A stretch of 46,973 nucleotides of DNA. Source: Alphaproteobacteria bacterium. Lineage in GTDB: Bacteria > Pseudomonadota > Alphaproteobacteria > Micavibrionales > Micavibrionaceae. The notes beneath the pieces were generated by a model. The model worked only from the letters and a program-made list of their open reading frames with translations, was not told the DNA's origin and made no database searches. Where the stretch lies: assembly GCA_021776075.1 (NCBI GenBank), contig JAJFGQ010000072.1:1-46973 (forward strand), read 5' to 3'. Below, one piece after another: positions 26,807 through 27,573 of the stretch; the first letter of the stretch is position 1; every line of letters begins with the position of its first letter. Both the position numbers and the translations under genes were made by a program.

Positions 26807-27193
26807 TTACTGGAGTGGTTGTCCGGCAGAAACTTCCAAAAGATGAGGCGTGCTCCACATTTTTTCTATTTTATAAAAATCGCGCACTTCCGGGCGGAAA
26901 AGATGAACGATAACATCGCCGGCATCCAGAATAACCCAGTTACACTGCTCCATTCCTTCGGTGCGGATATGGTTGTGTCCTGTTGCTTTCAGGCGGTCTC
27001 TCAATTTTTCTGCCAAGGCGCCAACCTGTCGGGAGGATCGTCCTGAGGCGACAACCATATAGTCAGCAAGCGCTGTCTTTCCTCTTAAGTCGATAATTTC
27101 GATCTCTTCCGCTTTATCAGCATCCAGCGACTGTTCGATCAGTGCTTTTAGCTGTTCCGGACTTTTTGGTCCGTTTGTATAGGTGGTTAAAAT
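26807..27193 (-). CDS. rsfS: Ribosomal silencing factor RsfS, non-canonical start
   Basis: Binds L14 and blocks subunit joining during starvation. The conserved core EEIEIIDLRGKTALADYMVV followed by ASGRSSRQVGALAEKL and CNWVILDAGDVIVHLF is intact. The first in-frame ATG (27058) lies inside this core, so translation must begin upstream, yet no ATG, GTG or TTG occurs in frame before the stop at 27217. The best initiator is ATT at 27193, with AGAGAGG 6 bp upstream, giving 128 residues; ATT at 27196 is the alternative. Alternatively, an ATG at 27218 gives MTTTEREVNY and would enter the RsfS frame after a +1 shift near TTTT (27190-27194). The C-terminus is normal. Confidence 0.85.
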   Translation of the reverse strand: MLTTYTNGPKSPEQLKALIEQSLDADKAEEIEIIDLRGKTALADYMVVASGRSSRQVGALAEKLRDRLKATGHNHIRTEGMEQCNWVILDAGDVIVHLFRPEVRDFYKIEKMWSTPHLLEVSAGQPLQ

Positions 27194-27255
27194 AATTGAC
27201 CTCTCTTTCTGTTGTAGTCATTTCCATTTACTTTCTTCACATCGTTATTCGTCGA

Positions 27256-27438
27256 TCACGTACGGGATTTGTACGCTTCTCTTCTTATGCCTTGTGCAAA
27301 AAGTAAAGCAAAACGACTATAGGGTGTGAACTGACCATAATAAAAAGCGCCACAATGCACAAGCATTAAGGCGCTTTCAAAAAATACGGGTTCTTCAACC
27401 CTGAAGTCACATATGTTATGCCCCTTTAATAAGGCCAT
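27256..27438 (-). CDS. Possible 60-residue small protein between nadD and rsfS
   Basis: From the ATG at 27438 (AAGGGAG about 6 bp upstream) the frame reads MALLKGHNICDFRVEEPVFF and continues 60 residues; it is also open to an ATG at 27558 (100 residues) without a ribosome site. Aromatic residues and two cysteines are notable. No family is recognised. It fills most of the otherwise empty spacer between rsfS and nadD. Composition is not decisive. Confidence 0.35.
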   Translation of the reverse strand: MALLKGHNICDFRVEEPVFFESALMLVHCGAFYYGQFTPYSRFALLFAQGIRREAYKSRT

Positions 27439-27573
27439 ATACACTCCCTTTCTATGGTCAAGCAGTAAGCTCTTCTCATACTTCAATTTTACGCCTTTTT
27501 CGGGGGTTACGCAACAAAAAGGGAGCGTTTTTTCTTTATAAATTACATTAGAGTTCATGCCCAATGCATTGAT

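Follow-up and report, generated by a model that had tools for sequence, protein, structure and literature searches.

The rsfS gene of the window (the whole stretch of 46,973 nucleotides of DNA that was analysed) has no canonical start codon upstream of its conserved core, an observation of the initial annotation that we confirmed. Its predicted translation from the AUU codon at 27193-27191 is well supported, because this start is conserved across the family, with related non-AUG starts across the class. Two features had been overlooked: the spread of such starts over most of a class, and the presence upstream of rsfS of a conserved leader with a terminator. We think it probable (about 0.78) that the AUU is a start disfavoured by IF3, like that of infC, so that RsfS would be kept at a low level and would rise upon a shortage of IF3 relative to 30S subunits, and that read-through of the upstream leader would constitute an additional layer of control. 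To our knowledge, few genes besides infC have conserved starts outside AUG, GUG and UUG; gene finders mostly ignore these codons. The rsfS start bears on the question of which targets, other than IF3 itself, are controlled by its policing of start codons, and this can be approached with reporters.

The rsfS frame and its start codon

The features of the coding region that are referred to below, with the evidence for each, are the following.

26807..27193, minus strand: rsfS coding sequence, from AUU start to stop (128 residues counted from ATT; TIGR00090 and Pfam RsfS matches; homology extends to the ATT codon)
27191..27193, minus strand: rsfS start codon AUU (AUU in 73 of 98 family genomes; codon-blind test of Shine-Dalgarno position)
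27200..27206, minus strand: Shine-Dalgarno (SD) sequence AGAGAGG, 6 bases 5' of the start (sequence; AAGGAG-type SD in relatives)
27056..27058, minus strand: first in-frame ATG, within the RsfS domain, rejected as start (the profile matches start some 26-29 residues before it)
27219..27221, minus strand: out-of-frame ATG (MTTTERE...), rejected rival start that needs a +1 shift (window-only insertion among 24 aligned leaders)

From stop to stop, the frame has 136 codons (26807..27217, minus strand). It matches TIGR00090 (E 9.8e-34, residues 25-121, 115.5 bits for a cut-off of 56.9) and Pfam RsfS, PF02410 (4.3e-32, residues 28-121, 110.7 bits for a cut-off of 21.6), and the top PDB match of its product is 3ups, an Iojap-like protein. 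In a pairwise alignment with E. coli RsfS, residues W86, D90 and R104 correspond to W77, D81 and R95, all identical; the latter are the three most conserved residues of the interface with L14 (PMC3400551). The predicted product is a member of the RsfS / Iojap family.

ATG, GTG and TTG are absent from the frame 5' of the ATG at 27058-27056, which is residue 54 of the frame and lies inside the RsfS domain. The start region reads AGAGAGG TCAATT ATT TTA ACC ACC TAT (minus strand), and the proposal that the ATT preceded at 6 bp by AGAGAGG is the best initiator was borne out by the SD-guided calls and the codon-blind test in the family (see below). The SD is a 5-base match, weaker than in most relatives. 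Another ATT is present at 27196-27194, merely 3 bases from the SD; relatives align with the second one, 27193-27191, and the tblastn matches to many of them start at this codon or directly after.

Two other ways of beginning the protein had to be weighed. The rsfS frame could be joined by a +1 frameshift to the ATG at 27221 (MTTTERE), the shift being either programmed or the repair of a sequencing error in the T run. This ATG exists, although at 27221-27219 and not at 27218 as first annotated (position 27218 opens its second codon), and its frame is open beyond the T run, which occupies 27192-27189 instead of 27190-27194. However, among 24 aligned family leaders it is found in the window only, inside an insertion, and the relatives, in which the T run was to be verified, have the SD and the AUU with an intact frame. 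A sequencing error or frameshift at rsfS was ruled out by that intact frame, and we regard the whole reading as highly improbable. Initiation at ATG 27058, the earliest in-frame ATG, has even less in its favour: the truncated RsfS would be short of some 26-29 residues covered by the family profile, and the protein sequence upstream of 27058 is conserved in relatives. The claim that at least 40 residues precede this ATG holds when homology to close relatives is counted (45 codons from the ATT to the ATG) but not by the profiles, which give the smaller figure.

Start codons in the family

Of 142 genomes sampled from the order, 135 had rsfS, and the analysis covered 134 loci (a genome with a fragment only and two extra partial matches were excluded), 98 of them from the window's family. 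The SD-guided calls for these 98 genomes gave ATT 73 times, TTG 18 times, ATC and ATG 3 times each and ATA once, three of the starts (L203, L231 and L233) being assigned by eye. Thus, 77 of the 98 have a conserved AUH start (AUU, AUC or AUA), outside AUG, GUG and UUG, with an SD in place. When the codon was chosen by SD position alone, blind to its identity, AUU, AUC or AUA came up in frame in 70 of 96 cases, whereas the two other phases gave 2/96 and 1/96.

At 46 of the 98 loci no ATG, GTG or TTG is available between the preceding stop and the RsfS core; the next gene, rlmH, taken as control, gave 0 of 121. Only this count of available canonical codons served as control, the SD-blind method being uninformative on rlmH because the gene, in this family, frequently lacks an SD or begins 5' of the first query residue. 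Directly downstream of rsfS, many family genomes indeed show an rlmH without SD and with a canonical codon 5' of the expected first residue.

The TTG and ATG starts of rsfS are confined to genera g3, g4, g18, g31 and g34 and to two g28 genomes. Since 21 of the 98 genomes use TTG or ATG, AUU is not indispensable. Another feature of the AUH-started genes is that, in 41 of 77, a stop in the +1 frame follows the start immediately (ATTTTAA or ATTCTGA type; 27187-27193 in the window), as if an upstream open reading frame were intended to end on the start.

Start codons across the class and phylum

The class sample consisted of 102 alphaproteobacterial loci, out of 273 genomes with rsfS, and only SDs of 5 bases or more were accepted. 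The start was AUA in 19, CUG in 13, AUC in 8, AUU in 6, ATG in 4, GTG in 3 and TTG in 2, with no call for 47. The in-frame totals of 33 AUH and 13 CUG out of 102 compare with 6 and 5 AUH, and 5 and 0 CUG, in the two shifted phases; by these calls, the predicted rsfS starts of Alphaproteobacteria are enriched for AUA, AUC, AUU and CUG. Reading by eye gave AUA for Skermanella and Rhodovibrio, AUC for Azospirillum, CUG for Roseicyclus and for MAGs of Rhizobiaceae and Phyllobacteriaceae, and TTG or ATG for Sphingomonadales; the automatic call conflicts with the eye reading at some loci, e.g. L071, L099 and L125. An apparent CUG start is seen in Rhizobiales and Rhodobacterales (L132, L143, L148, L381, L383, L384, L389 and others). 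Those of Ancylobacter are less certain because, at most of its loci, an in-frame ATG follows nine bases later. If the non-AUG start of rsfS is indeed Alphaproteobacteria-wide, the RsfS N-termini of many records need checking.

A draw from the phylum brought 26 newly fetched loci, 5 of which fell within the class; the remaining 21 loci of Pseudomonadota all had a canonical codon adjoining the RsfS core. The rsfS start of E. coli K-12 is TTG, as also stated in PMC10917681.

Start of infC and start usage in the window genome

As judged by eye, infC has an AUH start at 23 of 30 loci of the same order (2 had another start and 5 were unreadable) and at 24 of 30 loci of the class (5 not found, 1 ambiguous). 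In the window genome its start region reads GGAGATATAGCT ATT AGC AGA. Since infC and rsfS are both AUH-started, the 30S and 50S anti-association factors have in common a type of start outside the set that IF3 tolerates.

A general shift of start specificity in the window genome was considered and rejected: among the codons picked by SD, ATG was the most frequent (39 of 289), and it came top only in frame. ATT accounted for 9 of the 289 picks in this survey of 381,370 sampled bases, and most of the AUH and CUG picks had a canonical codon upstream; the survey is noisy, and exclusivity of AUH starts to infC and rsfS is not provable from it. A tRNA scan found no initiator tRNA in the sampled stretches.

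The leader upstream of rsfS

Between nadD and rsfS, the window contains five elements.

27509..27514, minus strand: -35 box of the leader promoter, TTGCGT (pattern match G000:C70:27476-27514; family alignment)
27486..27491, minus strand: -10 box of the leader promoter, TAAAAT (family alignment; pattern match)
27426..27479, minus strand: ORF1, predicted leaderless, 17 codons (MRRAYCLTIERECIWPY), its ATG 6 bases past the -10 (ORF1 of 13-24 codons in 58 family leaders)
27256..27438, minus strand: ORF2, 60 codons, overlapping the end of ORF1 and running through the terminator (38 of 47 leaders have an ORF2 that spans the terminator)
27342..27374, minus strand: intrinsic terminator 5' of rsfS, GCGCCTTAAT..ATTGTGGCGC followed by TTTTT (62 of 98 family loci have a terminator-like site no more than 90 nt before the start)

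Of the 98 family loci, 89 yielded a measurement of the nadD-rsfS gap, and 84 gaps were of suitable length for scanning. A promoter of the form TTGC, 17-18 bases, TAWAAT, followed by ATG after exactly six bases, was found in 56 of these 84; with this spacing the AUG of ORF1 is expected to be at, or adjoining, the start of the transcript. Adding the window (set by hand) and L004 (where the spacing is five bases) makes 58 leaders, all of which have an ORF1 of 13-24 codons. Terminator-like sites at most 90 bases upstream of the rsfS start were present at 62 of 98 loci, versus 2 of 98 within-gene control stretches. In the 47 leaders with a terminator after ORF1, 40-73 bases separate it from the ORF1 stop, and ORF2 passes through it in 38 cases, versus a mean of 19.6 and a maximum of 27 in 300 shuffles. 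The predicted anatomy of the leader (promoter, ORF1, ORF2, terminator, AUU) is conserved in the family.

In the window genome the promoter-ATGA pattern matches once only, at rsfS; over six genomes it gave ten matches, six of them at rsfS (one per genome), and its reversed control gave none. The leader goes with the AUH start: 56 AUH and 2 other starts with the leader, 17 and 14 without it (Fisher p 2.6e-6, uncorrected for kinship). It is not class-wide, terminator-like sites being found at 3 of 102 class loci.

RNAalifold, applied to 27 leaders, returned the terminator only and no conserved antiterminator hairpin of the classical trp type. Because these 27 leaders showed no conserved switch besides the terminator, the proposal of attenuation made below relies on the position of the ORFs. 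Two features of translation-coupled transcription attenuators are nonetheless present: an intrinsic terminator that separates the promoter from the structural gene, and a leader ORF so positioned that it could act on this terminator. An Rfam search of 27256-27514 gave nothing above the gathering score, with one weak chance match elsewhere. A generic promoter and terminator scan detected neither leader element, apparently because its rules require TTGACA-like boxes and an uninterrupted stem.

A possible link to IF3

AUU starts are discriminated against by IF3, AUU being outside the set of codons that it permits. Because of this behaviour, and of the AUH infC in the same genomes, we infer that IF3 would discriminate against the rsfS AUU, so that translation of RsfS would be low and would go up when IF3 is short relative to 30S subunits. 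The weak non-AUG starts found across the class suggest that RsfS production may be linked to IF3 in its role of policing start codons. RsfS prevents the subunits from joining (PMC3400551); as predicted from its family, the window's protein would do so on the 50S side, IF3 acting on the 30S side, and since the two would block opposite subunits, a common IF3-policed start would couple both anti-association factors. If this is true, the cell may link two subunit-separating routes to one sensor.

The leader could act in the same direction. The leaderless 5' end, the attenuation by translation and the physiological purpose set out here are, like the sensitivity to IF3, what we infer. The transcript would begin at or very near the AUG of the tiny ORF1, ORF2 would overlap the ORF1 end and cross the terminator, rsfS would be reached solely by read-through, and translation of the leader ORFs would disrupt the terminator. 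With ample IF3, ORF1 and ORF2 would be scarcely translated, the terminator would fold, and the few full transcripts would be poorly initiated at the AUU. If IF3 were in short supply compared with ribosomes, both barriers would relax and RsfS would be produced, one anti-association activity substituting for another. According to PMC2268962, an elevated level of IF3 is inhibitory to three kinds of initiation: at non-canonical starts, on leaderless mRNAs and by re-initiation that lacks an SD. The rsfS transcript appears, from its sequence, to use the first two, its re-initiation step often having an SD-like sequence. That the IF3-opposed events are stacked (leaderless ORF1, re-initiation into ORF2 over the overlapping stop, AUU of rsfS) into a cascade sensitive to free IF3, by which the 50S factor is produced once the 30S factor runs short, is a tentative extension that we consider doubtful.

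The same facts admit less elaborate interpretations. The AUU might, as has been proposed for pcnB, be a weak start whose sole effect is to limit RsfS, without responding meaningfully to the level of IF3: non-canonical starts generally reduce expression (PMC13009471), and TTG, likewise weak, takes the place of AUU in 18 of the 98 family genomes and is the start of E. coli rsfS. Yet codons outside the IF3-permitted set are retained in most of the family and enriched over the class, though UUG would have been a weak option as well, and infC has the same type of start as rsfS; we therefore find this interpretation somewhat unlikely. We have similar reservations about the view that the leader is a small RNA in its own right, or the tail of the nadD unit, and that rsfS has a separate promoter between terminator and SD. 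Such a promoter would fit in the window, where the terminator is 153 bases from the start, but in most relatives the spacing is just 30-67 bases, which leaves scant room for it, and the leader promoter, ORF1 and ORF2 are held at near-constant spacings in the family.

Relation to known systems

Conserved IF3-governed non-AUG starts are already known for infC, pcnB, sigR, ccpN and cvfC1; that of rsfS is apparently new, as we found no paper on it. Among the matches listed for the open-licence PMC literature, judged by their listing entries and abstracts, none reported a non-AUG rsfS start in Alphaproteobacteria, and a term search of the main text of a Sinorhizobium ribosome-profiling paper (PMC10117765) returned neither rsfS nor CUG. 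The count of switches to an AUU or a CUG start in PMC5622118 comes to no more than a handful.

The closest likeness is with infC of E. coli, which has an AUU start with an SD and codes for an anti-association factor (IF3), and which is AUH-started in the genomes studied here; however, its product autoregulates its own start, whereas control of rsfS would come from the product of another gene. The E. coli pcnB gene also has an expression-limiting AUU start (PMC13009471, PMC1780047) but does not code for a ribosome factor. In Streptomyces, sigR, which like rsfS is distinct from infC, has a GTC start repressed by IF3 (PMC5472188). As in rsfS, a conserved non-canonical codon is accompanied by a strong SD; codon and gene are different, and its conservation concerns one genus, whereas the rsfS starts extend over a class. 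The ccpN (AUA) and cvfC1 (AUU) genes of S. aureus have conserved non-canonical starts with an extended SD; they are again other genes, and a leader of the rsfS type is absent from the description available in PMC13009471. As for the leader, it resembles the pyrBI attenuator of E. coli, where a leader ORF also crosses an intrinsic terminator; there, however, a single ORF with an SD is involved and UTP is sensed, whereas rsfS has two overlapping ORFs, the first of which is predicted to be leaderless.

The window's own leader shows one peculiarity among the 24 aligned: an insertion of about 100 bases between terminator and SD (within 27341-27207, minus strand), apart from which it fits the family pattern. 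An inverted repeat is present inside this insertion, at 27259-27275.
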